The notes under the pieces: model-generated
Database searches by the model: none
What the model was told of the DNA's origin: nothing
What the model saw: the letters and a program-made list of their open reading frames with translations, nothing else
Assembly (NCBI RefSeq): GCF_000003605.2
Contig: NW_003130360.1
Location: 338,464 to 365,353, forward strand
Source: Saccoglossus kowalevskii
Taxonomy: Eukaryota > Hemichordata > Enteropneusta > Harrimaniidae
Length of the DNA stretch: 26,890 bases
Reading direction: 5' to 3'
Made by a program: the position numbers and the translations under genes
Part shown: positions 671 to 26,890 of the stretch, piece by piece
How the letters are laid out: each line of letters begins with the position of its first letter
Numbering within the stretch: position 1 is the stretch's first letter

Positions 671-684
671 CTATAATAGGCTTG

Positions 685-4159: not shown

Positions 4160-4168
4160 TGATTGGAT
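4160..4168 (+). repeat. 9-bp target-site duplication, right copy
   Basis: TGATTGGAT, identical to 2827-2835. Confidence 0.9.
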
Positions 4169-4244
4169 AGATGTTATAAATGGACTCTCTGTTGGTTTAC
4201 AAAACCTTCGGCCGGAACGCAGCCAAGCGTTTTGACCGTTATTA

Positions 4245-5540: not shown

Positions 5541-5543
5541 TTA

Positions 5544-5975
5544 GGCGGGATTATTAGATTTAAGTAGCGCCACCAACGGCACGAAATCCTGTTTTTATAA
5601 AAATGCGGAAGTGATGTGGTAACTTCCCGCGGTATTTTCTTTTTGTGTTATTTTAGAATCTTGTCAAAAATCATAATTTAAAAATGACTAATATGCAGGT
5701 CTAAAATGCAACGTTGTCCAATAGGTTTTCGATAAAAAAATCAACGAATGTATTAAAATATGCAATTTACAATGACCTTCGTATTCACTTTTCAAAATCA
5801 AAACATTAAGTTTGGTGTTTTTGTAAGTGTCGCATTTTCTTATAAAAATACTTTTTAATTTTCTGGTTTGACTAGGACAAAAAATATGTTTGAATTCATA
5901 ATTTAATATAAAAATATCAGTACTACACTCAGCGAGCGTTGCAATTTTGACCTTTGCACTGGCGTGTATGACAAG
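5544..5975. other. Non-coding stretch between element and LTR
   Basis: No gene seen. A short imperfect hairpin (GCGGAAGT paired with ACTTCCCGC) lies at 5607-5632. The rest is AT-rich. Confidence 0.4.
5972..5975 (+). repeat. 4-bp target-site duplication of the LTR, left copy
   Basis: CAAG, repeated directly after the LTR at 6668-6671. Confidence 0.65.
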
Positions 5976-6667
5976 TGTTACGATGTTCTATTTTTGCTGT
6001 AATATAAATGTATTTTGATAATGCCCAGTTAGCTAGCGAGGCTTGCCCAGCTGCGGAATTAGAATAGACAGCATGTATTGTCATTGCTAATTAATATTCT
6101 TTTATTCGTGATTGTGCTCAGCTCCAGTGTCAACGTGGCAGCCAACTTACGTCTCAAGATATTGCTTTTCAAATCCGGCATCTGTGACTGATTGATGCAA
6201 GACAGCCTATTGTGGTTCTGCGCTGTAAAACCAAACATTCTTCAAAGACCTGTGTTTCGTCAGAAAGCGTGGTTTGTTGATCTTGGTTCTTTCTCTGCAC
6301 GGACGGCATGAAAGTCGCGTAAAATTACGGTCAGTGTCGTGTAATTTGCATTTCCCGAAACCTCGTAGTTTGGAGCTGTAGAACTGATATCGTCGTCGAC
6401 GTTGCTGTGAATGACTGTACTATCGCTGAAACTACGCAGTACGAGTTCTGCACTTAGGTAGGGTAGGCAATTCCGGGCTGGGCTATTATCATTAATGTTA
6501 TTATTGTGATTTATATTACTCCTGTTAATGATTTATGCTTATTGTATTGTATTATTAAATTAGTATTATTTGACATATTCTGGTTTTGTGTCTTTGTTTG
6601 ACCTTTAGTGTTGCGTCCCGGAGTGCGGGATATTGGCGGCCAGGTTCCCGTATTCCCGTTCGTAACA
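5976..6667. mobile_element. Solo LTR of an LTR retrotransposon, 692 bp
   Basis: It begins TGTTACG and ends CGTAACA, a perfect 7-bp terminal inverted repeat with the canonical TG...CA ends. It is flanked by CAAG on both sides. Inside there is no long frame, and composition rises in GC in the middle and just before the 3' end. No primer-binding site, polypurine tract or second LTR is seen next to it, so it is read as a solo LTR left by recombination between two LTRs. A 4-bp TSD fits Ty3/gypsy-type elements. Orientation cannot be fixed because the ends are symmetrical and no clear AATAAA is visible. Confidence 0.7.
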
Positions 6668-6702
6668 CAAGCCACTTTCTGTCTAATGATGGCGTTGGCA
6701 TA

Positions 6703-6730
6703 GCCACAGTCCCTCTAGAGGGGCTGTGGC
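6703..6730. repeat. 28-bp near-perfect palindrome
   Basis: GCCACAG at the left pairs with CTGTGGC at the right. The centre CCCTCTAGAGGG is self-complementary, with one T/G mismatch on each side. It would form a cruciform or RNA hairpin with a very small loop. It stands alone, 36 bp after the LTR, and no protein-coding or RNA-gene context explains it. Confidence 0.85.
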
Positions 6731-6778
6731 GTAGCATAACACGTTTATCGAGCGGTCTCTGAATCTTTCAGTGTTTGG

Positions 6779-6784
6779 CTAATC
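6779..6784 (+). repeat. 6-bp target-site duplication, left copy
   Basis: CTAATC directly before the left end of the 4.5-kb element; it recurs at 11280-11285 directly after the right end. Confidence 0.6.
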
Positions 6785-6804
6785 TACTGTGGCCCATATA
6801 TACA

Positions 6805-6870
6805 ATTGGTCCGCTACTTGAAAACTGCTCCGCTTCATGAAAATTGCTCAGTTTTCTAGAAAATCGCGTC
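6805..6870 (-). repeat. Left subterminal 19-bp repeat array (3-4 units)
   Basis: Units such as CTCCGCTTCATGAAAATTG, the reverse complement of the right-end units. The last unit is degraded (TTTTCTAGAAAATCG). Confidence 0.7.
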
Positions 6871-9800: not shown

Positions 9801-10078
9801 GTTAAAACAGCCCTACCACTGCAGCTAAGAAATATGTCCTATCACGTGAGTAACACAGTGCCTCGGGACAAGATGTCCAGTTGAGACGAGTCGTAGCAGT
9901 TTGTGCGTGTGTGCGTGTGCGCGTGTGCGTGTGTGCGTGTCAGATTTTTCCACATTGTAAAACTTTTCGTAAAACTTATAATCAATTAGAAGACAGAATT
10001 CAGTTACATGACGCAATATTTATCAATAAACACAATTAGGAATAAACAAAATATTTCTATATGAACTATAATATTATA
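6871..10078. other. AT-rich interior of the 4.5-kb element, no gene seen
   Basis: Open frames are short and lack coding character. A (GT/GC)n microsatellite is annotated separately. The 15-mer GTAAATATAAATACG occurs at 8807-8821 and again at 10915-10929. TACGAGTTATT occurs twice near 8796 and 8839. Confidence 0.4.
9902..9939. repeat. (GT)n/(GC)n microsatellite
   Basis: Alternating purine-pyrimidine tract of GTGCGTGT units. It has Z-DNA-forming composition and is bordered by ordinary AT-rich sequence. Confidence 0.9.
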
Positions 10079-10208
10079 AGGTTATTACGAGGATACCTCA
10101 AAGTATGCACAAAAACAGTACAGAGGGAGTAGCGACCGACGCGCAGCGGAGGTCAATGCGACGGCGTACTGTCTGAGTGCATACTTTGAGGTATACTCGT
10201 AATAACCT
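10079..10208. mobile_element. 130-bp inverted-repeat element (module Y)
   Basis: The left arm AGGTTATTACGAGGATACCT continues CAAAGTATGCAC and is mirrored by the right arm ending GGTATACTCGTAATAACCT. The arms match for about 31 bp, then more weakly through an ACAGTAC motif to about 45 bp. No convincing TSD is seen. A related single arm with the same TACGAGGATACC end lies at 16742-16806, so it belongs to a dispersed family. Confidence 0.65.
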
Positions 10209-10324
10209 AATTCTTGTACACCTTTTTCTTTCCAAGGATACATCATGAGAATGTCAAAAAACAAAAAGTTTAGAACAAAATCAGCAAACGTCTTTGTGTA
10301 GAGACAGGTCAAACCCTGGTGGCA

Positions 10325-10490
10325 GCCATATTTGTTTTTATTATCAGAGGACGCTTACGCGCGTAATCATTCCATATTTTGAATTCGCATTTTCTAATAT
10401 GGTAGGATGAAAATACCCTGTAAAATACAGTAAAATAAGGCACTCTGTAATTTATGGCGTTTCGGTGACAGATGTATAATAATAATTTGT
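10325..10490 (-). repeat. Dispersed repeat (module X), inverted copy
   Basis: Its reverse complement carries ATTATACATCTGTCA, ACGCC, GGGTATTTTCATCCTACCAT and ATGATTACGCGCGTAAGCGT in that order. The same order is found on the plus strand at 16590-16742 and, shortened, at 17495-17592. It lies beside module Y here, as it does near 16742. Confidence 0.75.
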
Positions 10491-11094
10491 AATACTCAAG
10501 AATGGACAGAATCTCGATTGCCAAACCGGATATGTGCGTAGATCAAATTGATACTTGAATACTAGATAGATGAAATTGTACGACATCGTATTACAATAGT
10601 AAAAAACAAACCAGGTGAAGGTTCAAAACCGCGTGAACACGTGTGCCCCTCTTCCAGCGGTGATAATAATACATAAACTTATAATGGCAAAACAATAAGG
10701 AGTTCTATACCATATTAACTTCTAAACAACAACAGTGTTAATTACAACAGCGAAAAATATATACTAGTATGCATGATATCGCAAAACATGTGTAAATTAT
10801 CTCGTTTAGAATTTCTTCGCAAAGTTAAGTTAAAGAGCTACATGCTTATGTCAAGTCATTGCTCTCGATTTAAATTTAAACTCTTCATTGTACGTCACGT
10901 ATAGCAAGCGTTTAGTAAATATAAATACGAGTTTTACACTATGCCGTTATATAGATTTAAAAATAATTAAACAATACGAGACACATCATCTTCAGCCCAT
11001 TGAGGTGCATATAGTTTCCCGTTTGTTTTCTTCAAAAATTAAATAATTTGTGTTACCATGATTTTCCATCAATTTGCATATAGTCAAATAATAA

Positions 11095-11259
11095 CGGAGC
11101 AATTTCCAATTAGCTGACCAATTTTCATGTAGCCAACCGATTTTCATGTAGCGGAGCAATTTTCAAGTAGCGGAGCGATTTTCATGTAGCCGACCGACTT
11201 TTTTTCAAGTAGTGGAGCGATTTTCAAATAGCGAACGGATTTTCCTGTAGCGGACCAAT
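11095..11259 (+). repeat. Right subterminal 19-bp tandem array (about 8 units)
   Basis: Consecutive units such as CGATTTTCATGTAGCGGAG and CAATTTTCAAGTAGCGGAG. They vary mainly at the second base and in the GGAG/CGAC end, with one unit lengthened by a T-run. Confidence 0.85.
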
Positions 11260-11279
11260 TGTATATATGGGCCACCGTA

Positions 11280-11285
11280 CTAATC
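11280..11285 (+). repeat. 6-bp target-site duplication, right copy
   Basis: CTAATC, matching 6779-6784. Confidence 0.6.
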
Positions 11286-11893
11286 GTATTGTGGTGTTTT
11301 AGGGTCAAGTTGAGGGTTTTAGTGTATTTTGTTGTATTCGTCCCCATCTATGGGTTAACATACACGGTGATGTGTGGACCATGCGTTTATTTTCTTGAGT
11401 CGGAATTTCTTAATCTCGAATCCTTGTTGAGTATGTTGTAAACTTCAAAAAATGTTTGCGTTAGCTCTGACTACTTGGCGCTTGTTTCTGGAGTGTCGAG
11501 CTTGAAACAGAAATATTTCTAATGTCCGGCTATAATATAAAGTTACGTTTTTAGAGTTACCAAAACAGTGATTTTCATAAAAAGGATTTAAATATAATGA
11601 AATAATATTTACTGTCATACGGATACATTGAAAGTGTATGAAAAAATGGGATTCCTAATCACAAAGCCCCATTTTCAAAATCCAGTAAAACACATTCTAT
11701 ATCATGATATTGATTCACGTTGTATTGATGGTTTGTGATTTCAGTTTTTGATATATCATCAGTTTTTGATATCACAAATTAAATGTATGTCATGACAGAA
11801 ACATATAAACACATACTACGATTGTACATGTCAGTACTTGTCCTTGGTTTGAAACTGCGCGTTTGTCAAAGCTAATTATAATAGATAGGTAAG
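11286..11893. other. Non-coding stretch
   Basis: No gene seen. CAGTTTTTGATAT is repeated twice within 25 bp near 11745-11772. The remainder is AT-rich. Confidence 0.4.
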
Positions 11894-11923
11894 GTGGTAT
11901 TATACACACACGTAGCGGGGAAA

Positions 11924-12379
11924 ATGTCGTCTGCGTCAAGTATTGTGTTGTCTCCCTCGGCAAAAGTGAGCAAAATTAGGGAAGCATTTCGAGCTTTGCG
12001 CGATGCAAGTTTGTTGTTACAGCAAGCTGTTTCAGCGACCAATGCTGAAATAGTGTCACGATCGCCGCTGCCGATTGAAACCAATCCCGGTCAGAATGTT
12101 CAAGTTAGTTCAAATGGGAGCTCCTTGTCGCGTCCGGTGACTTCCACGAATACGCTCTCCGCACGGCGTTCTCGAGACATCAGAGATGATTCGGTGTTTC
12201 CGTTCGGGAAGAAGAAGGGGTCGCCGTGAGAATCGTGTATGGGGGGGGGGGGGGGTATGCCAACAAGTTCTCGACCGACATGGCCTCATGCTTGGATAGC
12301 ATTGGCCACCACAGGCCAGGATTGGGTACCTTCCACTCAGGAGCGGCGCATTCTGTCAAAAGCTAGATTGCCCATCTGA
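11924..12379 (+). pseudogene. N-terminal relic of a G2E3/HECT-like element-associated protein
   Basis: The ATG at 11924 (context GGGGAAAATG) opens a GC-richer frame with a Ser-rich start, a helix S-K-I-R-E-A-F-R-A-L-R-D-A-S-L-L-L-Q-Q-A, a Ser/Thr-rich linker and a basic patch R-S-R-D-I-R, ending at a TGA (12227-12229). The same frame resumes through a 15-G run into T-W-P-H-A-W-I-A-L-A-T-T-G-Q-D-W-V-P-S, then E-R-R-I-L-S-K-A-R-L. That pattern (aromatic-x-H, L-A, V-P, E, I-L, A-x-L) is what I recall from the multicopy proteins of fish and invertebrates labelled G2/M-phase-specific E3 ubiquitin ligase-like, which carry a C-terminal HECT domain. No HECT domain is present here. The plus-one frame through the basic patch is also open (R-R-R-G-R-R-E-N-R), so the G-run may mark a frameshift. 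Family assignment is from memory. Confidence 0.45.
12241..12255. repeat. 15-base poly-G run
   Basis: Uninterrupted G15 within the coding relic. It may mark where the ancestral frame broke and is prone to assembly error. Confidence 0.95.
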
Positions 12380-12404
12380 AGGGTACTCACAGAAATATAT
12401 TGCA

Positions 12405-12770
12405 TATAAAATGTCAACATAATGATGAAATAATGTAAGAATGCTAACAAAATGAAAAATAATTAGAACATAATGCTAAAATAATATAAAATGTCAACAA
12501 AATGATGAAATAATGTAAAAATGCTAAGAAAACGAAAAAAAGCAATGTGAACATAATGATGAAATAATATAAAAATGTCATCATATTGATGAAATATAAA
12601 TGATAAAAACTGATGTGAGCATATGATAAAATAATATAAAAATGTGAACATATTGATGAAATAATTAAAAAATGATAAAATAATGATAAAAATAAAAATG
12701 TGAACATAATGATGAAATATTTGAAAATTTTTTAACAACATGAAAAAAAAGGATGTTAACATAATGGTAT
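12405..12770. repeat. Degenerate AT-rich minisatellite, period about 25-40 bp
   Basis: The core ATGATGAAATAAT recurs at about 12421, 12501, 12556, 12588, 12622, 12651, 12672 and 12706. The spacers read roughly ATAAAAATGTGAACATA. The long minus-strand open frames here, rich in Phe, Ile and His, are products of this repeat and not genes. Confidence 0.85.
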
Positions 12771-12908
12771 AATGCTAATACAAATGTTATTGGCACTGAT
12801 CTCACCCCATGTCACAAACGTCGTGGAGGGAAATTTACAAGTACAAGAACACAAAACAAATTACTGAAATTGACAAAACAAGTGCCACATCACAGTCAAA
12901 TCAGTGAA

Positions 12909-13280
12909 AAAGAGATAGTATAGTGGCTGTCGCTTCAGACTCATGATCAGAAGACTTAAGTTCAAATCCTATCTTAGACTGAACATCAAATGGTCGACCC
13001 CTACCCTTGGTGAGTGTGCTACAGACTCAATGGGAAGGCCAATTCCACTGGCCGAGATTCATTCACTAACGAATGCTACATTGGGGGAACCTTGGTTAAG
13101 GTCCGCAGGTGCTTGTATTCGACCGAGCCTGGTTGACGCCAGGATAGCGTATTAAAATTGCCATTTGGCAGAGAGATGGCCACACAGCCCTATCATGTAG
13201 TCCCAAACATGAATATGACCTCTGTGACAAAATGCACTATGTATCAGCACTAGCACTTGTAATTTGCACATACAAAAAAA
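12909..13280 (+). mobile_element. tRNA-Met-derived SINE
   Basis: The A-box TAGTATAGTGG is at 12916-12926 and the B-box AGTTCAAATCC at 12959-12969. They start 43 bp apart, the spacing of a tRNA gene. Counting from the A-box, the anticodon arm falls at 12935-12951 with 4 of 5 stem pairs and loop CTCATGA, so the anticodon is CAT (methionine). The acceptor and T stems are decayed, so it is not a working tRNA gene. About 300 bp of unrelated body follows, including GGAAGGCCAATTCCACTGGC and CAGAGAGATGGCCACACAGC, ending near an A-run at 13273-13280. The right border and TSD were not found. Confidence 0.7.
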
Positions 13281-14040
13281 GTCAGGAGAGACAACAGTGA
13301 CATTCAAAGTCCATAACTGTCGCCTGGCACAAAAATATATTTAAAAAAAAAAGAGATATATGAACTTCATGATATTTATCAAGTACAAGTACACTATAGC
13401 GTGAAATCATTGATAAATTAGTGGGAAAAAAATTTAAATCTAGAGTACAAGTAAACTAAGATACATTCTACTATGTTATTCTCGTAGATTCGGAAGTTTT
13501 TTTTTAAAAAAGTATAGCATTTTTTAAGAAAATCACTGAGCTTAAAGTCGACATATTTAGCTTTCTAATGATATCCTACTTATCGTCCTACACCGTCTAC
13601 ATGCGAAGATATAGTACTATGAATAATAATAACTTGCTCCGATGACCCATTTTCCCCTCGCTAACGACGAGGAAAAATGATGTGGGGCGATTCTAAAAAT
13701 ACTGTTGGCCAAATCAAGCGCACTATTTAGCACATAAGAACTATATTTCATTATATATGCCAGAAAATTCCAAATTTCCAAAGACTACGGTGTTCAAAAT
13801 AACAGTTTTGCTGGTCTATCGGAAATACATTTGAAATTTGTCACGTGACCTATGTCAAATAAGCGCCCTATGACAGTGGGTTTGGTTCCGGCTGCTTGGA
13901 CTTACCGTTACCGGTACATGTTCAATGCAGAAAAAAATAAAACGCCATCTTGTTATGGGAATCATTTATAATCCAGATATATTTGGGTTACAACAGTTTT
14001 AATAGTGCAGCATGGTTACAGAAATACATCAGTCTAATCC
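13281..14040. other. Non-coding stretch
   Basis: No gene seen. It contains A- and T-runs (about 13341-13350 and 13498-13505), a small inverted motif CCTCGCTAACGACGAGG near 13657, and a GC-richer patch (13860-13920). Confidence 0.4.
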
Positions 14041-14043
14041 ATT

Positions 14044-14160
14044 ACATTACTATCTAAATCATCTGATAACTGGTATAAATTCAATGATGATAGCGTAACA
14101 CTTATTGATATCGAAAAGTGTCATAATGAGCAGGCTTACATCAGGATTTTAGCAGTTGAT
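14044..14160 (+). pseudogene. Relic of a ubiquitin-specific-protease C-terminus (His-box region)
   Basis: A plus-strand frame reads S-K-S-S-D-N-W-Y-K-F-N-D-D-S-V-T-L-I-D-I-E-K and then N-E-Q-A-Y-I. It is followed by a small disruption, after which the next frame suggests L-F-Y-like residues before Q-L-I-E. In ubiquitin-specific proteases (cysteine deubiquitinases) the C-terminal catalytic block is G-H-Y-T, about 10 residues, then W-Y-x-F-x-D-x-x-V and x-x-A-Y-x-L-F-Y. The order and spacing fit well, and CATTACATTAC just upstream may be what remains of H-Y-T. The enzyme's Cys-box is not in the window. The fragment is frameshifted and cannot be active. It directly precedes another decayed frame, so both may come from one element gene. 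Confidence 0.5.
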
Positions 14161-14208
14161 AGAAATAAATAGTAATTGTTATGAATCCACCAATAACAAT
14201 CGAGAACC

Positions 14209-14805
14209 ATGTCACATACTTGGCAAGATTTGTCTACTTATATGAAAGATCTGGTTCAAAATAAGGCTGATGTTAGTTTATCTCTTCAATATGATATGTT
14301 AAGTAAAAAAATTGCACAGGCAAATTGAGCTTGATGAAATAAAAAATAGGCATGTGAAAGCTGATGTTATTGGTCGTAAGAGGGAATATACAAAACAATA
14401 TATGAAATAGAAACGTAAAAACAAATGTTATCGTCAATCAAAATCAAGAAAAAAAATCTCACAACTGGAGAAGGAAAGATATTCAAGGAGATTAAGTAGG
14501 GAAAATATAGAACAATTGGAAAAAGAGAGAAATGAAGTGAGATTAAAGAGGAAAATATAGAACAATCAGAAGAATGCAATGAGAATAAAGGGGAAAAATA
14601 TACAACTAGAGAGAGCGTTGTGCGAAGAGATTAAGTAGAAAGAACGTAAAACAATTGGAAGAGAGAATTGCAAAGAGAACAAGTAGAAAATATATAGAAC
14701 AGTTGTAGGAGAAGAGATTAAAATATACAACTTGAGGAAAAGTGTAATGCTAATGAAAATCATAGAAATGTACCTGAAGGAAACAATGATCAACCACTAT
14801 TCTAG
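14209..14805 (+). pseudogene. Decayed gene for a basic, coiled-coil-like repeat protein
   Basis: The ATG at 14209 opens M-S-H-T-W-Q-D-L-S-T-Y-M-K-D-L-V-Q-N-K, which stops near 14328. Shifting frame by one base restores I-E-L-D-E-I-K-N-R-H-V-K-A-D-V-I-G-R-K-R. It continues past an in-frame TAG through Y-R-Q-S-K-S-R-K-K-I-S-Q-L-E-K-E-R and R-L-S-R-E-N-I-E-Q-L-E-K-E-R. More units of the form R-K-x-I-x-Q-L-E-x-x follow in shifting frames down to Q-L-E-E-K-C-N-A-N-E-N-H, ending near 14805. At least three frameshifts or stops are needed. Such Arg/Lys/Glu repeats with R-x-x-x-E-N occur upstream of the helicase in invertebrate Helitron-type or PIF1-like element proteins, so a Helitron link is possible but is an inference. 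No helicase motif is visible. Confidence 0.5.
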
Positions 14806-15434
14806 AGAAAACTCAATGGAAGCAGAACATCACAATATCAACAACTCTCCCCAAATGTATAGCTCTAAGGGATATTTGGTAGTAAGAAATGAAAATTATG
14901 TTATAAAATTTCACTATTTCAAGAGCCAATTCTTGGTCTCAACTTAACCAGTTGTATCAACTAATCTTTTGTGGGCAAGGTTTCAATAGTTTTGTTATGT
15001 ATATTATGACATCTGCGAGTCGGATTTTACCCCGGGCACCTGGCCAGGCGGGATTTATAAACAATCAGCTGATCGATATTTAGCATACAAGTGCGTACAA
15101 GCTCACCAAAATAAATTTGTGCAGATTTAATTAATTTCTTTTAAAAACAGTGTTGTTCCAGTTGTGGTACTTGATCCTTTCGTGGTGTTTTGGCATTGTC
15201 CAAAGGGTAGGTGAAACGATACTAGTGCTAGCGCGTAAATTTCCAAAACGGCGATTATCTCAACTTCATTTTCAACCTCAACCAGGTCCTTCAAAACTAT
15301 TTAGCTCCCAGACTATTTCGTCATTTCCTTTGAAATTTTCAGAAACTATTATTCCGATCTGACAACGGCGTTAATTACGGGTCAATTTAAAAGTGTGAAA
15401 CTTTTAAGAAGCACTGTGAAAAAACTATGTAGCA
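14806..15434. other. Mostly non-coding stretch
   Basis: The first 150 bp may be the eroded tail of the preceding relic. A GC-richer segment (15010-15060) contains CCCCGGGCACCTGGCCAGGCGGG. A 70-codon open frame at 15150-15362 has a Pro/Ser-rich second half but no recognisable motif, so it is not called as a gene. Confidence 0.35.
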
Positions 15435-15596
15435 CAGGGACGGATACAGGATTTTCTATTGGGGGGGGGTGTCCAAACTTTAAAATCGCCGGACTAAGTT
15501 AATGATTTTGTCATATTATAAAAAAAAAATTGAATACATTTTTCAACGAGGGGGGTTCGGACCCCAAGAACCCCCCCCCCCCTAGATCCGCCACTG
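15435..15596. mobile_element. 162-bp hAT-type MITE with G-run and C-run
   Basis: The left end CAGGGACGGATACAGGATTT and the right end TAGATCCGCCACTG are imperfect inverted repeats of the widespread CAGTGGCGGATC-x-AGG type that marks many hAT-like MITEs. A G9 run follows the left end and a C12 run precedes the right end, as is usual for this family. A clean 8-bp TSD is not present; TATGTAGC on the left and TATGATAC on the right are only similar. No coding capacity. Confidence 0.75.
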
Positions 15597-15997
15597 TATG
15601 ATACTTTTGAAAATCTGGCAAAATAAGCTTTCATGTGGTATATAACATGACAAAATTAACGTATTCGTTAGTAGTGTAATTTATTGTTTAACATTCCTAT
15701 AAATCATAGTACAGTGCCACCTTGAAATGGTTTATTTTTTCAAAACATCTCTGTCAAGAAACTTCTCAAAAAATGCAAATATTTATATTAATTGTATTTT
15801 CTTTTGACATTTGAGATTAAATATACCAGCGCAAAAGGTTTCTTCAAAGTAAAATATTTGTAATGAATAAACTATATATCTAAATTCAACATTCAAAATT
15901 GTGACACCATAATTTTCTGAATAACTCTAAACACAGTAGTTTTTTTTTCAATTATTACTGCATATTTGAAATAACTTATTACAGATTTAATTTTGGC
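15597..15997. other. AT-rich non-coding stretch
   Basis: No gene, repeat end or regulatory signal recognised. Confidence 0.4.
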
Positions 15998-16413
15998 CTA
16001 ATCTGGTGAAATATTCGACAGAAACAAATCCAACATGGCAGTCGGTGAGTGGTCGGATAAAAGCATAATATTCTGGCTCCTGAATGCCTTGCTTGCAGCC
16101 ACCGCGAGAGAAGTGCACCACCAACACAACGACAGAGAAACTTCTGTTAATGAAACAGAACAATGCAATGTTCTTCCTTCATACTCAACGATCTCCTTTT
16201 TGTACGTTTCAAAATAACTTGTACCATACAACTGTAACAGCTCTGGAGTGGGGTCGCCCATCATACTATAGTACACACAATCCATTTTGTCACTTGATAT
16301 GATTGCTGTAACCAAATAGAATTTTGAAGTGTCACGCATTTTCACTCTTTCATAAACATTACACCAACACAGCAGAATTCTTGAATCAACAATGGTGTTT
16401 AAGATATATTAAA
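15998..16413 (-). CDS. Unidentified minus-strand open frame (possible exon)
   Basis: The minus strand is open from a TAA near 16413 to a TAG at 15998, roughly 135 codons, long for DNA this AT-rich. It reads through N-T-I-V-D-S-R-I-L-L-C-W-C-N-V-Y-E-R-V-K-M and D-T-S-K-F-Y-L-V-T-A-I-I-S-S-D, then T-P-E-L-L-Q-L-Y-G-T-S-Y-F-E, then a hydrophobic segment (S-L-S-L-C-W-W-C-T-S-L-A-V-A-A) and S-D-H-S-P-T-A-M. An exon start after CAAG near 16382 is possible but its pyrimidine tract is weak. The opposite strand also has a shorter ATG frame (16035-16217) in good context with GTGAGT nearby, so the coding strand is uncertain. No family recognised. Confidence 0.3.
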
Positions 16414-16431
16414 ATTCAAATGATATTGAGT

Positions 16432-16742
16432 TATCAAGTATAATTAGTCATAGTTTTCTATTTCACCCTGTTCAAGTTCACCCTGTTGTAATTGAACGAT
16501 TGAAACTGATTAAGCATTGGGAGGTCATCAGATATGGCCCTGTACGGAAGTATTATTGTATCATCACAAAACAAACGAGCAAATCGGGATATACCGGTAT
16601 GTCATTATTATACATCTGTCATCTTAACGCCACAAGTTCCACCGTGCCGTAAGTTTGCGGTATATCACGGGGTATTTTAATCCTACAATATTAGGAAATG
16701 AGAATTCCAAAAATGAAATGATTACGCGCGTAAGCGTCCTCT
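16432..16742 (+). repeat. Dispersed repeat R, copy 1 (contains module X)
   Basis: Matches 17342-17592 with moderate divergence. Shared landmarks are ATCAAGTATAATTAGTC, GATTGAAACTGATTAAGCAT, CATCACAAAACAAACGAGCA and the ATTTTMATCCTACMATAT block. The 3' part, ending ATTACGCGCGTAAGCGTCCT, is also found inverted at 10325-10490. Confidence 0.8.
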
Positions 16743-16806
16743 ATACGTCGGTCGATACTTCCGCTGTACTGTCTTCGAACATACTTTGCGGTATCCTCGT
16801 AATAAC
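16743..16806 (+). repeat. Module Y single arm
   Basis: Carries GTACTGTCTTCGAACATACT and ends GGTATCCTCGTAATAACC, matching the right half of the 130-bp element at 10079-10208. Confidence 0.7.
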
Positions 16807-16931
16807 CTCATAGTATAGTCATACAGGTGTTGACAGTTTATTAAACTTTTATATATACAACATAATTGCAGAAAATAACATTTTGGAAAAAGTACATTTA
16901 ATATATAATATCTTTTTTATTCATACGTGTG

Positions 16932-17272
16932 TCCTGTATTTAAATATGTTGCACAATTCCATTTCTACTGGTACACAAAAATATAGAGACTATTTAGTGA
17001 CGTCACAGTATTCCATATCACATTCGAAAGGAAGCACTGGAAACAAATTCATCTGTAATTAAGCTATTTCATTCATTTACATCATGTAATAATTAATGTT
17101 GTTCAATATCTATTATATAACCATTACGCCACAGTCTGAGTTATATTACTGGTATATTCCTGATACCATATACAGTTGTTTTAGAATATCACTGATTTTT
17201 TATTTATGTTATAAAATACTGGCCTATTTCCCAGGATTAGGCTAATACAATGTGTTATTGTAAATATTTACA
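16932..17272 (+). repeat. Repeat B, copy 1
   Basis: Shares TTTCTACTGGTACAC, ATAGAGACTATTTAGTGACG, GCACTGGAAACAAATTCATC and CCACAGTCTGAGTTATATTA with 23721-24072 and 26193-26440. It contains a CRE-like TGACGTCA. No coding frame. Confidence 0.85.
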
Positions 17273-17705
17273 GTAAGTGTTTCACAGATAACTCAATACA
17301 CTATCAAATTTGGTTTACAAATAATATAATACATATTAGGATATCAAGTATAATTAGTCGTAGTTTTATATTCTACATAGTTCATCCTGTTGTAATTGAA
17401 TGATTGAAACTGATTAAGCATTTGGAGGTCATCAGATATGGCTCTGTATAGAAGTATTATTGTATCATCACAAAACAAACGAGCAAATCGGGATATATGT
17501 CATTATATTACATCTGTCATTGTAACGCCTTAAGTTACAGCGTGTCGTAAGTTTGCGATATTTCACGGGATATTTTCATCCTACCATATAGGAAATACGA
17601 TTCCCAGGATAGGCTAATACAATGTGTTATTGTAAATATTTACAGTAAGTTTCACAGATAACTCGATACAGTATCAAGATTGGTCTACAGATAATATATT
17701 ACGTT
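17230..17705 (+). repeat. Partial tandem duplication with about 373-bp period
   Basis: The block beginning CCCAGGATTAGGCTAATACA at 17230 recurs at 17603, including ATGTGTTATTGTAAATATTT and ACAGTAAGT. Between the two blocks lies the second copy of repeat R (17342-17592). Confidence 0.8.
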
Positions 17706-19770
17706 ATTTATGCATATCATTTAGGAGATATATGAGCTGCTTGATTGGCGTATTTTGTCAGTTTACATCATTGAATAATTTTAGTAAATTGCTTGGTGTT
17801 CAACATAATATTACAGCTGTTTAATCATTTAATCAAAGAAGGGGTGTTGGCGCTTTCTGATGTTCCACAGAGATGGCTACTTATACACTGAGTGCTTTAA
17901 TTAGCCCTCATTCGGACGTCTAAAAACGGGGACACATGGATTGACCTCGCTGTGGGTATATGCGTGTATGTGTGCGTGCGTCCATCCGTTCGTTCGTATC
18001 CATCGCACACTTGCTTGAACCAATTAAGTTCAAACTCCACAGATACATCCTATTAATATGGTATTTGCACATGCATTTTTGTCATTGTTGAACTCGAAAT
18101 TACCTTTTTAAGATTAAAATTGTATCACATATTTTCACCATTCATCATTATATCAGACAAATACACGTACATTCATCTCAGCATCAAATCCAAAATGTCT
18201 GACTAGTGGACAGTTCCACAGAGCCATATTTTAACAGGCTTGGACCAATCATGTTAAATCTTCACACATGCATCACACATCAGGTTATATATATATCAAG
18301 TTTATAATAAACATGAGTACTCTGACATTGGCAATGACTTGTTTAGCTTGAACTTCAAGGTCATTAAGTCAACATAATTCCTCCATCAACAAATCATTGT
18401 TTATACAGTACAACACCTGCTTTGCAACGTTTCAGGCTAGTTGCTTTGATGTTTACAGTTGAGGAATTATGACCAGTAGCACCACAGCTACTGCAAGAAA
18501 TCAATATATCCAACTTAATCTAACCTGGTATAATGCTGACATTTTGAGTTACATAACAATTAAAACTAGTTCCAAAACCTATAGAGAATCTTCATAAGCG
18601 AGCTAACTCAAATGTGTGAGTGAAAATGATGAGAAAAACTTACACATATGTTACCCAGATCAGAAGCCATTTAGTTCATAAGAGAAGTATCCATGTGGAC
18701 ACCCTTGATTCTTGATTAAGGGATAATGTCGTTTACAACAACAACTGCAACCACGTAAAAGCTTTGTATTGAAAAGCATTATGTATTTACAAACACAGAC
18801 TCGCTACTCATTGATATGTATAGAAAGCTTTATATACTCGGTGCTGTGGTCTCTATGCCACTACTCCCACACAACACGACAAAAACGGCTTTAAGCAAGA
18901 GACACGATTAGAGTGCCCATCTGCCTGCGTGCAGCGATGCTTTCAAAACTTGAGGCTGTTGGGGGGAAAACATCAAAAAGCAAAGGGCATTAAAAACATA
19001 TTCATCATAAGCAATAAATGGTTATTAAGCCATCATATATATAAACAGCACTAGAATATATCACTGTTTTAATCAGCAAGCATTCAGCAAAAAAATAACT
19101 CCCTCTGATGACGGTTCACTTTTCCATTCAGAGTTATTATGACATCAAGCTGTCAAGCCACCCATTTTGATGACCCGGTCTCTGGTGCATGGTTATTGTA
19201 TTTCCTGTGCATATTGTTCCAATAATACTCTGGTTCCAGTGGAATTAAATATGAACTTGTCTGACTCCATGACTCCACAACTATACACATGACTCTGGGT
19301 AAACACTCTTTTACTAAAGGTAGGCTGTGTTAAAACACAGTAGCTATATGGGTTTTTCTAGTAGTGATCATTATAACAATAAAAATCAAGCGGTAGAATC
19401 ATTCTAATTTCAAAACGTTTAGACTAAGGTACCTATATATTTACCTAATATTGGTATTGTAATATATTCATACAGATTATTATGACTGAACGTATATCTT
19501 GTCTATCCAATCATGGTGCGGAATATTATGACAAAATGGGCGTACTCTTTGGAGTAGTAATCAGTAGTAACCTCAACTGGTAATCAAAACATCAAGAAAG
19601 CTCTGGCGAAATTGAAACGAGACCCATTGCATGAACTACGTGTTTTAGCAATTGGTAGCGCGACCGGTAAATGCTGCAGTTGTTGACAGTTATTATAAAC
19701 AAACTTGAATTCATAATAATAATTATTTGTATCTTGCCCTGTGTCGCATACGACTTATTTACCACTTCCG
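17706..19770. other. Non-coding stretch
   Basis: No gene recognised. It contains a GTGTGCGTGCGTCCATCCGT simple-sequence patch (about 17960-18000) and two TTAAGTTCAA/AACTTCAAGG-type lines, suggesting an old dispersed repeat at 17900-18500. A short AT microsatellite lies near 18286. All frames are short. Confidence 0.4.
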
Positions 19771-19779
19771 TGTCACTGA

Positions 19780-19792
19780 GAATGTTCTAGAA
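19780..19792. promoter_or_regulatory. Heat-shock element 1 (perfect)
   Basis: GAATGTTCTAGAA fits GAAnnTTCnnGAA at all nine fixed positions, the trimer site bound by heat-shock factor. Confidence 0.75.
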
Positions 19793-19810
19793 CCGTACTG
19801 TGTCTGGGTG

Positions 19811-19823
19811 GAATATTCTAGAT
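19811..19823. promoter_or_regulatory. Heat-shock element 2 (one mismatch)
   Basis: GAATATTCTAGAT fits GAAnnTTCnnGAA except the last base. A further GAA follows 9 bp later in TTTAGAAACT. Confidence 0.65.
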
Positions 19824-19883
19824 TTTTTTTAGAAACTGGTTGAATAGGTAATAGAACACTGTAGGAGGCAATAGAAGGTAATG

Positions 19884-19896
19884 GAACATTCTAGAA
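19884..19896. promoter_or_regulatory. Heat-shock element 3 (perfect)
   Basis: GAACATTCTAGAA fits GAAnnTTCnnGAA at all nine fixed positions. A weaker site (AAATTCCAGA) follows at 19906-19915. Confidence 0.75.
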
Positions 19897-19961
19897 ATTA
19901 ATAGTAAATTCCAGACTCAGTATGTATGCTGATGTAATGGTCTATTTATAGACAGTGTGGG

Positions 19962-19997
19962 TATATATAGGGGAGTTGTTCAACACTGAGATCAGAT
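19962..19997 (+). promoter_or_regulatory. TATA box and initiator
   Basis: TATATATAG at 19962-19970 is followed about 31 bp later by GATCAGATC (A at 19994), close to the arthropod-style TCAGT initiator. The spacing is that of a standard RNA polymerase II core promoter reading to the right. It lies 66 bp after the last perfect heat-shock element. Confidence 0.55.
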
Positions 19998-20248
19998 CGG
20001 AGACCACGTTGAATTGTATTGGAGTTTAAGTATCTAGTCATTGGAGTAGTTGAGTTTTACCGCGATATTGTACTTGATGTTTGCAGAGTATAATAATACC
20101 AGTACCAGTTGAAACCTCATCTGTTGGCTCCGTGTTCGTATTTTATCATCGCCGCCAGGGAAGTCTTTCTGTTACTGTTGCCATTTTGGTATTTGAACCA
20201 TCACACCTGTACTATACCAATTACGGTAATATTACGTTACGTGTGACA

Positions 20249-21840
20249 CCCTGATGTGTTTACAAGAAACCATTTACAACCCATGAAAATACAAGTAACT
20301 TGTTGAATATGGAGATAAGTTTTATCCCTAGGTTATAAAATGGGTTAGTTTACAGTATTTATTAAATTATAGTATCAGATTGTTTGGACTGATTTATTGT
20401 GTATGTGTTGCTGAGTATATTTACAAATTGAAGGTATGCTGAACCATATAATAATCATTAAAATTAAAATGATCACTAAAACAACATTATTATCATTCAA
20501 TTTGAACAGTTTGAATAGAAACGAGAGTTTATTCCGTTGTTTGGTTTTTCACTTTAGATTCGGTAAACTGCCAATTACAGAATGATTTGTTATATTTTAT
20601 GTTAAAGCTAATAACGCAACAGTAACTGAATATAGGCCAGACTTATTCTTGGACCAACAATTTTTCTAAACTACTTGCATATAATGTATAGGAAGCATCA
20701 TTTTCATAAATGCAGTAGGGTGGTTTGCCCCCTCTCCCGCATATACACATGTACATGTACAACTTGTATAATGTACTGACAGGTAAATTACTTCAATATT
20801 GCATTAAAATCTTGCAAGCCGAATATGGGGAAGTATCAAAGGTTAGTGAAAACCAAGTTTTGTTTTAGGTCCGCTATCAAATTCATCGAGCGAAGCTAAT
20901 TATATTACTGATTGACCTTCGTTGTTGTCCAGTGGCATCAACTTCTTGAAAACCAATGTTATTGATAGGTCTACTCAACATACATGTATATCAACTATTA
21001 GATTTGTTCATTTCGGCTGGAAAACAGCTCACCCAATCGCTTTACTATTGTATATTGTATATGTGTGGACTCATCTAACATTTGTTCAGATTGCTTGTGA
21101 AAATGTGCATTGCTTGCAGCGATGCTATCTCAGTTGAATCGCTGCTTGTTTTATTATAGAAGAAGTGATTTTTAAATGAGATGCTCTATATAATATTAAT
21201 TACTTTAAGTGAAATCATATCATTTGCTGTTATGATTTTTATTATGATTAATCGTGCACATGAATTGCAAAAAAAGATTCTTATAACAGTTATTGCAAGA
21301 AGAACCCAGTAGTAGGTAGCATCACACAAATATACACGTTCTATTCAATTCATTACTACAGCATCCGACCATAAATAGCCCCAATTCACTACCAAACGCG
21401 TGATTTCGGTCTTTTTAGTGCAGTAATATTTCTATGCCTAGCCTATAAATCAGCTGACATCTGGCTTATTAAATAAGACAAAGGATGAAGGCACAATTGG
21501 TCTGATTGTGTGTACGTTTTACGAATCAGTTACCCTCGTGCTCTGGTCCGTAATCAGTCATGTGATTTGTGCATGACAAATTTCTAGATCCGGCCGATAC
21601 ATACAGGTTAGGCATACAGCTTATTTTATTCCCTGGGCTCCCTATGTCTTAACACGTTATGTATCGTTGCTTTTAGCATATTCTGTTGATGCCATATTTT
21701 TTACACACGTGCAAGTCCAAGATTGGTCAAACAATTACGTAACAAACCAAAGTAAATTCATTTTAATACGTGATGAACCAATGCATTGCCTGATATTAAA
21801 AGTTCAGAAACTAAGTTTTTAGAACATAAGTATAAGCATT
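20249..21840. other. Non-coding stretch
   Basis: No gene recognised. The 71-codon frame at 20922-21137 is Cys/His-containing but has no motif and no splice context, so it is not called. AT-rich throughout. Confidence 0.4.
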
Positions 21841-23162
21841 CAGTAATTTTAATGAAAAAAGTACATTTTTCTTAGTAATAGTGACACCTGTTGTTTAGTA
21901 TGATTGATCCCCACGGTTGGGTGGAGGAGCATAGAAGTTTTTAATTAAAATTATTTTCCATAATAAACAAGAAACCATCATAGATGTTCTTATAAACAGC
22001 CTTTCAATTCATAGTGGGGGGTGGAGTAAACCTGTGATTATTTTTATTACTTTCTGACTATCTAGTTTGCCGTTCACCATGTCCATTTCCATATAAACAA
22101 AAGCTCCAGCCAATATCAGATTTGACTACTTGTTTTAAGTTGTGGCACTTGGAAACGAGTGTTAGTACATGTGGCAAATGTCCAACTGTCTTGGGTAATA
22201 AGATTGGCTAAATTTCAACTAGAAACAGGTAAACCAGTATACCTGTATGTACGAAGCCAGTGAATTTGATACAAGCGAAAATAAACTGCATCTATCTATG
22301 TATATAAATATACATGGACAGAGAATATTTTCTTAGAGCACTAAATGTGACAATTGCCCTATTGTCTGTGCTGATTTGGTAGGTTAAACCCACCTTTAAT
22401 ATACCACACCAGCCACATAGCGCCCGATGCGGAGCTGGGTAGGTACTGAAAAAAAACATTGACTGAAGCATTGCAAAGGACTGAATTGTTGTCAATAACA
22501 ACAAACATATTGGAAGGTCAAAGAGAGTGAAAAAAACATACAGGCATATAACAACTTTCTGGGACCTTTCTTTGTTCCAAGTAATCCACAGTAGAACGAG
22601 ATGAAACAACGCTATACTCCGCCATCTTTATTTTGATATTGGATTCAACGATTATTTTATGGGAACCATGGGTCATAACTTGAGGGGAGTTAACACCCAT
22701 GATATTAAAAATGCCTTGATTATTAAGAGTCTAAATTACAAGGAACCAATACTTTGATTTTTTCAGTGGACCAATAAAAGCATTTGAAAGTATATAATTG
22801 TTCATATGACATCCTTCATGTGTATAGTTGCTGTCACAGTGTAAGTCCTGCTTATCACAATTGAGAGGGCCACCCACAGAACTCGCACTGGACAGGGGGT
22901 TCTGTCACTGCTAGAATGGGGTAGACAAGACAATAGTATTGAAAATGAAATACACATACACCAAAATATCGAGTTAAAGCTCCTGACTTTAATACCTCTC
23001 AAAATAATTAAAGGAAATTATTCACCTTTATGACAGTTATCATACGGCAATGCACACCGTTTCTTTCCATGATTCCATGCACACTTATATGTGCAGGGTT
23101 TGAGGTAATATGACAACAACATAAAATAAAGGATGCTGACAGTTGTCAATTACAGTAACATC
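21841..23162 (+). repeat. Repeat A, copy 1 (about 1.32 kb, complete)
   Basis: Starts CAGTAATTTTAATGA and ends near TTGTCAATTACAGTAACATC. Aligns along its whole length with 24753-26033 at high similarity and with 26447 to the window end. Landmarks are AGTGACACCTGTTG, CAAAAGCTCCAGCCAATAT, GCACTAAATGTGACAA, ACCACACCAGCCACATAGCG and AGAGGGCCACCCACAGAACT. No transposase or reverse transcriptase motif is visible on either strand. Confidence 0.9.
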
Positions 23163-23167
23163 GCTAT

Positions 23168-23720
23168 AACAACCCTATAGTCCGCTATCTTTATTTTAAT
23201 ATTGGATTCAACCATTATTTTATGGGAACCACGGGTCATAACTTGAGGGGAGTTAATACCCATGATTTTAAAAATGTCTTGATCAATAAGAGTCTAAATT
23301 ACAAGGAAACATTATTTTGATTTGTCAGTCGACCAATAAATGCATTTGACAGTATATAATTGTTCATATGACCTCCTTCATGTGTATAGTTGTTGTCACA
23401 GTGAAATGCCTGCTTATCACAATTGAGAGGGCCACCCACAGAACTCAAACTGGACAGGGGGTTCCGTCACTGCTAGAATGGGGTAGACAAGACAATAGAA
23501 TTGGAAATGTAATACACACTAAAATATCGAGTTAAAGCTCCTGGCTTTAATACCTCTCAAAACAATTTTAAGAAATAAATCACCTTTATGACAGTTATCA
23601 CTCGGCAATGTACACCGTTTCTTTCCATGATTTCATGCACACTTCTATTTGCAGGGTTTGAGGTAATATGACAAAAACATAAAATAAAGGATGCTGACAG
23701 TTGTCAATTACAGTAAAATC
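23168..23720 (+). repeat. Repeat A, partial tandem copy of the 3' part
   Basis: Matches 22605-23162 and 25480-26033, beginning at CCCTATAGTCCGC. It sits head-to-tail directly after the complete copy. Confidence 0.9.
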
Positions 23721-24072
23721 AACTAACTAGGACAGATTAAAAAGGACCAGAAATGTATTTAAATACGTTGTACATTCATTTCTACTGGTACACACAAATA
23801 TAGAGACTATTTAGTGATGTCACAGTATTCTATATCACACCCTAAAAGAAGCACTGGAAACAAATTCATCTGTAAGTGAGCTATTTCATTTATTTACATC
23901 GTGTAATAATTAATTTTATTCAATATCTATTATATAAAAATTATTACACCACAGTCTGAGTTATATTACTGTTGTATCTACATATATATAAAGTTGTTTT
24001 TAGATATAACTAAATTCTTATTTATAATATACCATACTGGTCAATTTCCCAATGTGTTGTTGTGAAATGTTA
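23721..24072 (+). repeat. Repeat B, copy 2
   Basis: Follows the A copy without a gap (AACTAACTAGGACAG). Aligns with 16932-17272 and 26193-26440. The CRE-like site is changed to TGATGTCA here. Confidence 0.85.
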
Positions 24073-24752
24073 CCATCCAAGTTTCTGAAATGAGCGTGTT
24101 TGTGAATAATAAGAACTTGACTTGATTGTATTAAATACTAACGCAATAGTACAATGGAAATATACTTTTTGTATAACACATGCAAAGTGATATGCTTCCT
24201 ACATTAGTCATGGTGGTTTGCATAGATGTCCGCCATTTTTAAAATCTGCCTTACTTAAAATTAACATTCATTAAATCAAATAGAATACTACACTGAAATT
24301 GATTTTTTAACAACAGTATAATATTGACAGACAAACAGAAGAATTTGCGATCAAAAATCAAACTCCATAAAACGTTTTATTTTCATTTTTTGTGTCGGGT
24401 TACAACAGGGACATGCATGGGTTACGGAGATTGATCATGTCAACAGATCCTGTTGATAGTGATTACACACAATCAGTGATGACACTGAGCAGTGATTAAT
24501 CAAGGCTAATTATGATTTAACAAAGCATAATGTGGGTAAAAATGTTTTACCATTAACACTCCAATACATAGTATTTTAATAATTCTAATCACAATCACCA
24601 GTGTATGCTAGTATAGCATTTTATAAAAGACTAAACAAATACTTTCTGGGGGCAGAGGATATCACAAACATATCACATAGAGGATATTTTATATTATACA
24701 CATATGTATCAATCATTTGTTAAGCTTGCAGCAAATATATATATATATATCT
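24073..24752. other. Spacer between repeat units
   Basis: No gene seen. It ends in an (AT)n microsatellite (24736-24750) that directly abuts the next repeat A. Confidence 0.5.
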
Positions 24753-26033
24753 CAGTAATTTTAATGAAAATGAAGCATAATATTCTTAGTAATATTGACA
24801 CCTGTTGTTTAGTATGATGGATCATCACGATTGGGTACAAGAGTATAGAAGTTTAAAATTAAAATTGTTATCCATAAGAAACATGAAACCATCAAAAGTG
24901 TCATTATAAACAGCCATTTAATTCATAGGCGCAGTAAGCCTGTGCTTATTTTTATTATTGTCTGACCATCGAGTTTGCCATTCACCGTGACCATTTCCAT
25001 ATAAACAAAAGCTCCAGCCAATATTATATTTTACTACTTGTTCTAAGGTTTGGCACTTGGAAATGAGTGTTGTGAAATGTGGCAAATGTCAAACTGTCTT
25101 AGGTAATAAGATAGTATGTACGAAGCCAGTGAATTTGATTCAAGGAAACAGAAACAGCATCTATGTGTATAAATACACATGGACAGAGAATATTTTCTTG
25201 GAGCACTAAATGTGACAACTGCCCTACTGTCTGTGCTGATTTGGTAGGTTAAACCCACCTTAAATATACCACACCAGCCACATAGCGCCCAATGAAGAGC
25301 TGAGTAGGTAGTGAAGAAAAACATTGACTGAAGTATTGCAAAGGACTGAAGTGTTGTCAACAAACATATTGGGAAAGTGAAAAAAAAGACAGTGAAAAAA
25401 AAACACACAGGCATATAAATTCTAACTTTCTAGGACCTTTCTTTGCTCTAAGTAAGCCAGAGTAGAACGAAATGAAACAACACTATAGTCCGCGATCTTT
25501 ATTTTAATATTGGATGCAATCATTATTTTATGGTAACCACGGGTCATAACTTGAGGGGAGTTAACAACCATAATTTTGAAAATACCTTGAACAATAAGAG
25601 TTCAAATTACAGGGAAAACATTATTTTGATTTTTCAGTGAACCAATAAATGCATTTGACAGTATATAATTGTTCATATGACCTCCTTCATCTGTATAGTT
25701 GTTTTCACAGTGAAAGGCCTGCTTATCACAATTGAGAGGGCCACCCACAGAACTCACACTGGACAGGGCGTTCTGTCACTGCTAGAGTGGGGTAGACAAG
25801 ACAATAGTATTGACAATGAAATACACATACACTAACATATCGAGTTAAAGCTCCTGGCTGTAATACCTCTCAAAATAATTAAAGGTAATAAATCACCTTT
25901 ATGACCGTTATCACACGGCAATGCAAACCTTTTTTTTTCCTCGATTCCATTCACACTTATATGTGCAGGGTTTGAGGTAATATGACAAAAACATAAAATA
26001 AAGGATGCTGACAGTTGTTAATTACAGTAACAT
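24753..26033 (+). repeat. Repeat A, copy 2 (complete)
   Basis: Full-length homologue of 21841-23162 with scattered substitutions and small deletions, for example loss of the TTGGCTAAATTTCAACTAG segment present at 22204 and 26809. A minus-strand open frame (about 25043-25414) overlaps the matching frame of copy 1 (22292-22609). Confidence 0.9.
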
Positions 26034-26165
26034 CAACTAACTGGCCATTGTAAATGAAATGTTAAAGGAAAGATTAAACAATACCAGACATGTATTTAAA
26101 TATGTTGTACACTCACATTTTTACGGGCACACACAAATATAGAGATTATTTAGTGACGTCACAGT
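26034..26165 (+). repeat. Repeat B, truncated copy
   Basis: Contains CATGTATTTAAATATGTTGT and stops abruptly after GTGACGTCACAGTA, where sequence from the end of repeat A restarts (AAGGATGCTGACAGTTGTCA). Confidence 0.85.
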
Positions 26166-26440
26166 AAAGGATGCTGACAGTTGTCAATTACAGTAAAATA
26201 AACTAACTAGGAAAGATTAATGAGGACCAGACATGTATTTAAATACGTTGTACATTCATTTCTACTGGTACACAAAAATATAGAGACTATTCAGTGACGT
26301 CGCAGTATTCTATATCACACCCTGAAAGCACTGGAAACAAACTCATCTGAAAGTGAGCTATTTCATTCATTTACATTGTGTAATAATTAATTTTGTTCAA
26401 TATCTATTATATAACAATTATTATACCACAGTCTGAGTAT
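26166..26440 (+). repeat. A-tail plus repeat B, copy 3
   Basis: The last 30 bp of repeat A, then repeat B from AACTAACTAGGAAAG to CCACAGTCTGAG. This is an internal partial tandem duplication of the A/B junction. Confidence 0.85.
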
Positions 26441-26446
26441 ATATAT

Positions 26447-26890
26447 CAGTAATTGTAATGATAAAAATGTACATTTTCTTAGTAATAGTGACACCTGTTT
26501 CGTATGATTGATCTCCACGATTGGGTGCAGGAGCATAGAAGTTTATAATTAAAATTATTTTTCATAATAAACATGAAACCATCATAAATGGCCTTATAAA
26601 CAGCCTTTCACTTCATAGTGGGGGGTGGAGTAAACCTGTGATTATTTTTATTACTTTCTGACTATCTAGCTTGCCGTTCACCATGTCCATTTCCATATAT
26701 ACAAAAGCTCCAGCCAATATCAGATTTGACTACTTGTTTCAAGCTGTGGCACTTGGAAACGAGTGTTAGTACATGTGGCAAATGTCCAACTGTCTTGGGT
26801 AATAAGATTGGCTAAATTTCAACTAGAAACAGGTAAACCATTATAACTGTATGTACGAAGCCAGTGAATGCTATTCAAGCCAAAGAAACT
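26447..26890 (+). repeat. Repeat A, copy 3 (cut by window edge)
   Basis: Begins CAGTAATTGTAATGAT right after repeat B, so B-A adjacency is seen here. It is closer to copy 1 than to copy 2: the GTGGGGGGTGGAGTAAACCT and AACTAGAAACAGGTAAACCA segments are shared with copy 1. Confidence 0.9.

Follow-up and report, generated by a model that had tools for sequence, protein, structure and literature searches.

A solo LTR with a predicted heat-shock promoter in its U3, from a young retrovirus-like family of Saccoglossus kowalevskii

The window, by which we mean the whole analysed stretch of 26,890 nucleotides of S. kowalevskii DNA, contains a solo LTR that derives from a retrovirus-like element, probably Ty3/gypsy, and whose U3 is predicted to hold an HSF-driven heat-shock promoter, a reading to which we assign a probability of about 0.78. 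The unit is an LTR, it was inserted at its present site, it belongs to a dispersed family and its promoter motifs are intact. Judged from these motifs, HSF would bind the LTR, heat would induce it, transcription would start at a predictable position and the host gene might be affected.

Boundaries of the inserted unit

The solo LTR occupies 19742–20248 (507 bp), reads TGTCGCA at its start and TGTGACA at its end, and is bordered on both sides by an exact CCCTG. The features that delimit it are as follows.

19742..20248, + strand: solo LTR of 507 bp in U3-R-U5 orientation on this strand, defined by genome copies, duplication and ends
19737..19741, no strand: 5' target-site duplication CCCTG, equal to 20249–20253, with a single CCCTG in the unoccupied paralogous site in L081
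20249..20253, no strand: 3' target-site duplication CCCTG, the same letters as 19737..19741
19742..19748, + strand: 5' terminus TGTCGCA, short inverted repeat and integrase end
20242..20248, + strand: 3' terminus TGTGACA, partner of the TGTCGCA terminus

The TGTCGCA/TGTGACA pair of ends was present in 54 of 58 distinct copies, a set that includes the window's own copy and takes in matches covering about 480 or more of the 507 bases. Within the window, 3 of 1853 CA ends do as well in combining an exact duplication with such ends, 19742–20248 being one of the three. The original prediction had placed the 5' end at 19771. There the flanks read TTCCG versus CCCTG, hence without a target duplication, and the 6-bp inverted termini are at chance level (482 of 516 anchors were as good or better), and this start was rejected. 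The true start lies 29 bp to the left of that edge, and was then confirmed by genome copies that align end to end.

Copies in the genome

The 572,110,611-base assembly (4830 contigs) was searched with the 507-bp unit and with the 20030–20248 piece alone, which gave 597 and 558 candidates, respectively, at a first look that does not count confirmed copies. As the best 40 were scored in each case, the solo copies sampled are those closest to the query. Among the 40 scored for the 507-bp unit, to which the window's own copy belongs, 39 align over bases 1–507 and one over 1–506, with 96–100% identity, and the mean pairwise identity of these 40 closest copies was 97.25%. The segment is hence not the single-copy, unconserved sequence that the original prediction had named as its refuting case. 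Its suggestion of a solo LTR was upheld by exact 5-bp duplications around 43 of the 58 distinct copies (3 more have one mismatch; 32 of the 40 closest copies are exact), by an unoccupied paralogous site and by a complete relative with two LTRs.

The leader that follows the 5' LTR was detected at only 27 places (all 27 candidates were scored), compared to hundreds of LTR candidates, and therefore most copies are probably solo and solo LTRs probably predominate in the family. At 27 of 27 places the leader adjoins an LTR match, which is partial in three. Exact pieces of the LTR had no match in IMG/VR; likewise, no Rfam family reached gathering score and no tRNA was found.

Heat-shock elements, TATA box and initiator

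The heat-shock elements (HSEs) and core promoter motifs of the LTR are listed with positions relative to the predicted transcription start at 19994.

19780..19792, + strand: HSE1, perfect GAANNTTCNNGAA, start at -214, perfect in 52 of 58 copies
19811..19823, + strand: HSE2, 8/9 match, start at -183, 8/9 in 39 of 58 copies and less in the other 19
19854..19866, + strand: HSE3, degenerate 6/9 unit, start at -140, within a 29-bp direct repeat
19884..19896, + strand: HSE4, perfect GAANNTTCNNGAA, start at -110, perfect in 54 of 58 copies
19962..19969, + strand: TATA box TATATATA, at -32, unchanged in 51 of 58 copies
19992..19998, + strand: initiator TCAGATC, with predicted start A at 19994, unchanged in 55 of 58 copies
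20092..20097, + strand: AATAAT, which may be a weak polyadenylation signal, with a GT-rich stretch after it at about 20120–20144

The promoter elements proposed in the original prediction, namely two perfect and one near-perfect 13-bp HSE followed by a TATA box and an initiator at fitting spacing, were recovered here as two exact matches with an 8/9 match between them, and as TATATATA at 19962 with the A of the initiator 32 bp further on at 19994. This heat-shock-type anatomy is common to the sampled family. The two exact GAANNTTCNNGAA sequences (19780–19792 and 19884–19896) are the only ones in the window and both lie inside the LTR; in 100 shuffles the mean count was 0.22, and 2 of the 100 reached two. 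Matches of 8/9 taken alone are common, with 11 sites in the window versus a mean of 8.49. A pair of perfect HSEs without overlap inside 130 bp occurred in 1/500, 0/500 and 0/500 simulated windows (Markov order 1, 3 and 5, respectively), and two perfect HSEs plus a third element in 0/1500; this null superseded a cruder one that permitted overlapping HSEs and gave 7/600 and 1/600. Each strand of the window has 4 instances of a TATA box with an initiator at 28–34 bp spacing; on the + strand, such a pair lies 50–200 bp downstream of 1.35% of positions.

HSE1 and HSE4 are perfect three-unit elements; for heat-responsive LTR elements of the ONSEN type, PMC5059998 uses the presence of three or more adjacent nGAAn units as its criterion. 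A 29-bp direct repeat (19846–19874 and 19876–19904, 76% identical) holds HSE3 and HSE4. In the 507-bp LTR there is no canonical AATAAA or ATTAAA, AATAAT at 20092 being the sole candidate.

Retention of the promoter motifs across the family

Motif retention was assessed in 78 distinct LTRs, defined as matches that start by base 3 and end at base 505 or later (10 partial rows were dropped). At least one perfect three-unit HSE was found in 77 of the 78 LTRs (two in 62, one in 15 and none in 1), and TATATATA was kept in 72 and TCAGATC in 71. The 43 copies with exact duplications had two perfect HSEs in 37 cases and one in 6, the 23 five-prime LTRs had two in 15, one in 7 and none in 1, and the 12 other LTRs had two in 10 and one in 2. 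At the family mean rate a nine-letter site is expected to be intact in 73% of copies, compared to 87% for HSE1 and 88% for HSE4, figures that are descriptive and do not amount to a test because the copies are related.

Variation in HSE1 and HSE4 across the 78 LTRs was 0.031 versus 0.034 elsewhere, with 243 of 507 circular shifts as low, so that conservation was not significantly above neutral. The corresponding comparison within U3 was 0.031 versus 0.050 (32 of 252 shifts as low), and as many as 342 of 507 shifts were as low in 23 divergent LTRs and 344 of 507 in 24 five-prime LTRs. All three HSEs taken together were more variable than the rest of the 78 LTRs (484 of 507 shifts as low), and for the TATA box plus initiator 162 of 507 shifts were as low. 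For the 40 closest copies, the figures were 29 of 507 for HSE1 and HSE4 and 190 of 507 for all three HSEs. An apparent extra conservation of HSE1, HSE4, TATA box and initiator together in these 40 copies (8 of 507 shifts) was not retained, since it had been computed without HSE2 and found no support in wider sets. As conservation of the HSEs was not significantly above neutral, their presence across the family may reflect recent common descent.

Structure and class of the parent element

A short complete element (L074/L108) consists, in order, of TAATG, an LTR, TCTGGGGGCTCGTCCGGG (primer-binding site), a 410-bp interior of which 50 bases are N, GAGAGGGGAGGCA (polypurine tract), an LTR and TAATG. 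Aligned with each other over 511 columns, the two LTRs of this element show 5 mismatches and 3 gap openings (94.5% identity counting gaps). Directly after the LTR, TCTGG was present in 23 of the 78 distinct LTRs, 15 of which carried the exact 16-base primer-binding site. The 3' flank TCTGGGGGCTCGTCCGGGAACAG is common to L034 and L039, and we take its TGG... part to resemble the tRNA-Pro-type primer-binding site of murine leukaemia virus. At a further locus (L007/L014), GAGAGGGGAGGCA lies just 5' of the LTR and an RNase H domain was identified at L007:826-1179 (RT_RNaseH_2, E 3.3e-34; RT_RNaseH, E 1.9e-33), in one copy and covering the RNase H part only. Both models are presumably typical of Ty3/gypsy. 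From this domain to the 3' LTR there are about 320 bp, too short for an integrase, and therefore part of the interior appears to be missing from the copy at L007:826-1500.

Because the copies share their ends, and because an empty site, a complete relative and a relative with RNase H exist, the unit in the window is the solo LTR of a young retrovirus-like family. On the evidence of a single RNase H domain and of the motifs at the LTR ends, this family is probably Ty3/gypsy. Among the other copies, L076 reads CACAC, LTR, the primer-binding-site side, a partial LTR (bases 419–507) and CACAC, and is an internally deleted element; the interior at L048 is N throughout (4501/4501).

Insertion site and host gene copy

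The contig (C2226) holds a tandem array of histamine-N-methyltransferase-like genes (window 1–670 and 19482–19666; L080–L082), and tandem paralogues of the LTR region lie on this same contig. In L081, from 1313, the site without the LTR reads CTTGCCCTGATG and has a single CCCTG; its counterpart in the window is CTTGCCCTG, then the 507 bp, then CCCTGATG. A second, more diverged paralogue near L082:2238 is likewise without the LTR, and a partial LTR copy (bases 1–437) is present elsewhere in L082. The exon that precedes the insertion is:

19482..19666, + strand: frameshifted exon 1 of a histamine-N-methyltransferase-like gene copy, matched by tblastn with the L082 paralogue as two pieces in two frames

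The donor GT of this exon is at 19667, and the LTR starts 75 bp past it, in the following intron and in sense orientation. The paralogous first exons are stop-free (L081:1050-1238 and L082:1999-2187), the L081 copy being without an ATG. Later exons of the preceding gene copy were found at window 1–177 and 326–667, with counterparts downstream in L080–L082; for the last exon, the matches in L080–L082 represent DNA likeness only. The gene is named methyltransferase-like from these later exons, as histamine N-methyltransferase was the best PDB match of both window 1–177 (7e-05, chain residues 128–175) and window 326–667 (0.0076, chain residues 215–283; the next was calmodulin, 0.063). A phmmer search with 55 aa of exon 1 of the L082 paralogue gave no PDB match, so the place of exon 1 in the gene rests on exon order in the array. 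Pfam, run on the three longest ORFs of the window and on the first exon, returned methyltransferase domains only, in the first exon, the best having an E of 0.00044 and 20.4 bits, below the Pfam cut-off of 27. The 10 kb from the window's end onwards, which cover the middle of the LTR-bearing gene copy, are N except for 50 bases.

Other repeats and frames in the window

Large collinear duplications relate window 422–18598 to L080:1066-9993, in pieces and at 71–90% identity. A stop-free frame of 136 aa at window 15998–16408 (- strand) is paralleled by a similar one of 162 aa in the tandem duplicate (L080:5732-6217, - strand); the window frame had no Pfam match and is possibly a repeat-borne or host coding remnant. 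A long inverted repeat at 2836–2999 and 3986–4159, with arms that are 87–96% complementary and about 1 kb apart, resembles DNA transposon ends. The arms of another inverted repeat (6785–6849 and 11215–11279) are 4.4 kb apart, the right arm edging a 19-bp tandem array, and are possible ends of a larger transposon. The region 21892–26795 is internally repeated, with units of about 150–300 bp at spacings near 560, 2300 and 2900 bp.

Proposed function and alternative explanations

HSF trimers bind inverted nGAAn arrays and bring Pol II to TATA promoters. The motif layout of the LTR closely fits this mode, and heat-driven transcription is therefore its most likely function. In the mechanism that we propose, stress-activated HSF trimers would bind the two perfect HSEs, and probably the 8/9 one too, 110–214 bp upstream of a Pol II start near 19994 that would be controlled by the TATA box. 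In the parent element, the resulting heat- or stress-induced RNA would feed retrotransposition. Recombination between the two LTRs of a parent retrotransposon would have left the solo LTR, which could still launch transcripts in sense orientation within intron 1 of the methyltransferase-like copy.

The strongest competing account accepts the solo LTR and regards its HSEs as passive passengers today, which methylation or piRNA would silence or whose binding would lead to no productive transcription, and is compatible with an active parent. The HSEs change at about the LTR average (243 of 507 shifts), and the 43 of 58 sampled copies that are solo with exact duplications require no element function, both of which agree with this account. 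However, two perfect HSEs persist in 62 of 78 LTRs, with the TATA box in 72 and the initiator in 71, and the copies are young (mean pairwise identity of 97.25% in 40 copies), and we consider passenger status rather unlikely. It is less probable still that the promoter is constitutive or germline-specific, its HSE-like motifs being sites for another factor or degenerate repeats of an enhancer. Direct repeats are common in U3 enhancers, and HSE3 and HSE4 do lie within the 29-bp direct repeat (76% identical), but two perfect three-unit HSEs with the TTCTAGAA core suit HSF trimers, and clustering by chance was rare (1/1500 simulated windows for two and 0/1500 for three).

Two further explanations deny the LTR itself, and to both we attach a negligible probability. 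The arrangement of HSEs, TATA box and initiator recalls that of hsp70 promoters, as would be expected of an ordinary single-copy promoter of a host heat-shock gene or non-coding RNA; such a promoter was rejected on copy number, given hundreds of candidate copies (the best 40 scored having the same boundaries), and is also at odds with the 5-bp duplications and the unoccupied site. A MITE, that is, a non-autonomous DNA transposon, whose 7-bp inverted ends are imperfect would account for the 43 of 58 sampled copies that stand singly, with short inverted ends, between exact 5-bp duplications. It would not account for a complete element in which a single duplication encloses two LTRs, a primer-binding site and a polypurine tract, for the RNase H that adjoins one copy, or for a leader that was always beside an LTR match (27 of 27 places), and was rejected accordingly.

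Returning to the heat-responsive solo LTR, a broader version that we put forward tentatively, at somewhat less than even odds, is that hundreds of near-identical HSF-driven promoters, mostly solo LTRs, are strewn over the 572-Mb genome, and that heat would fire dispersed non-coding and chimeric transcripts from them, one from intron 1 of the methyltransferase-like copy; this would be an animal counterpart of the plant element ONSEN in which solo LTRs keep their HSEs. If the LTR is heat-responsive, the genome probably offers hundreds of near-identical natural heat-shock promoters at different sites, and thereby a ready experiment on how transposons rewire a stress response and on how chromatin context chooses the active copies. 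HSF-hijacking LTRs would then extend from plants, where they are shown, and fungi, where they are predicted, to an animal LTR retrotransposon family. Heat-responsive LTRs are already known from plants; of moderate interest here are this family and the fact that its solo copies have mostly kept their HSEs.

Comparison with known systems

The assignment to Ty3/gypsy can be compared with published LTR end motifs, which are TGTYANR for Sushi and TGTNANR for rGmr1, with 3' CNTNACA and CGTNACA (PMC3601003). By eye, 6 of 7 letters fit these motifs at each end of the present LTR, and its length of 507 bp is in a range similar to the Sushi and rGmr1 training lengths of 572 and 695 (PMC3601003). AATAAA is described as one conserved motif of animal Metaviridae (PMC3601003) and is absent from the LTR here. 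In the R of Ty3/gypsy elements it is common but not strictly defining. No chromodomain or integrase was seen in the parts of the interior that were read.

Among animal elements, the retroviral LTR of HIV-1 has been described with a heat-shock element (PMC9367301), and Cer1 of C. elegans, which is Ty3/gypsy-related, shows temperature-dependent expression (PMC3315495). A literature search by titles and the beginnings of abstracts, which may miss older Drosophila work, revealed, among the matches listed, no family of animal LTR retrotransposons whose LTR bears HSEs. Helitrons of Caenorhabditis bear HSEs, and HSF-1 binding and heat-induced genes have been reported for them (PMC6927752); like the family here, they are animal transposable elements that strew HSEs genome-wide, but unlike the present LTR they are DNA transposons. 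In Cryptococcus, TCN3 and TCN12 have putative HSEs in the LTR and TCN3 yields 5-bp duplications and solo LTRs (PMC12810828); the same source states that heat-shock-induced activation has been shown in plants and animals, with the Helitron paper among its sources. TCN3 and TCN12 thus share putative LTR HSEs with the family here, but are fungal, and their HSEs are likewise predicted only. DIRS-1 of Dictyostelium, a tyrosine-recombinase element with inverted terminal repeats, reportedly has a heat-shock promoter in those repeats, going by the title of Zuker et al. from 1984. Terminal repeats with a heat-shock promoter, predicted in our case, are common to DIRS-1 and this family, but DIRS-1 is without target-duplicating LTRs.

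The closest parallel is ONSEN/COPIA78, which together with other heat-responsive COPIA elements of Brassicaceae has HSEs in its LTRs and was shown to be activated by heat (PMC5059998, PMC3907296). In both ONSEN and the present family the LTR carries HSF-binding elements, predicted ones here, and in ONSEN the heat response is borrowed from the host. ONSEN, however, is a plant Copia element with demonstrated heat activation, whereas the family here is animal, retrovirus-like, probably Ty3/gypsy, and predicted to respond to heat. A functional HRE was present in 0 of 16 ONSEN fragments or solo LTRs in A. thaliana, and a putative HRE in 15 of 55 ONSEN copies, ten of the 55 being full-length, in A. 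lyrata (PMC5059998). In contrast to the A. thaliana remnants without a functional HRE, 37 of the 43 sampled solo copies in S. kowalevskii retain two perfect HSEs.
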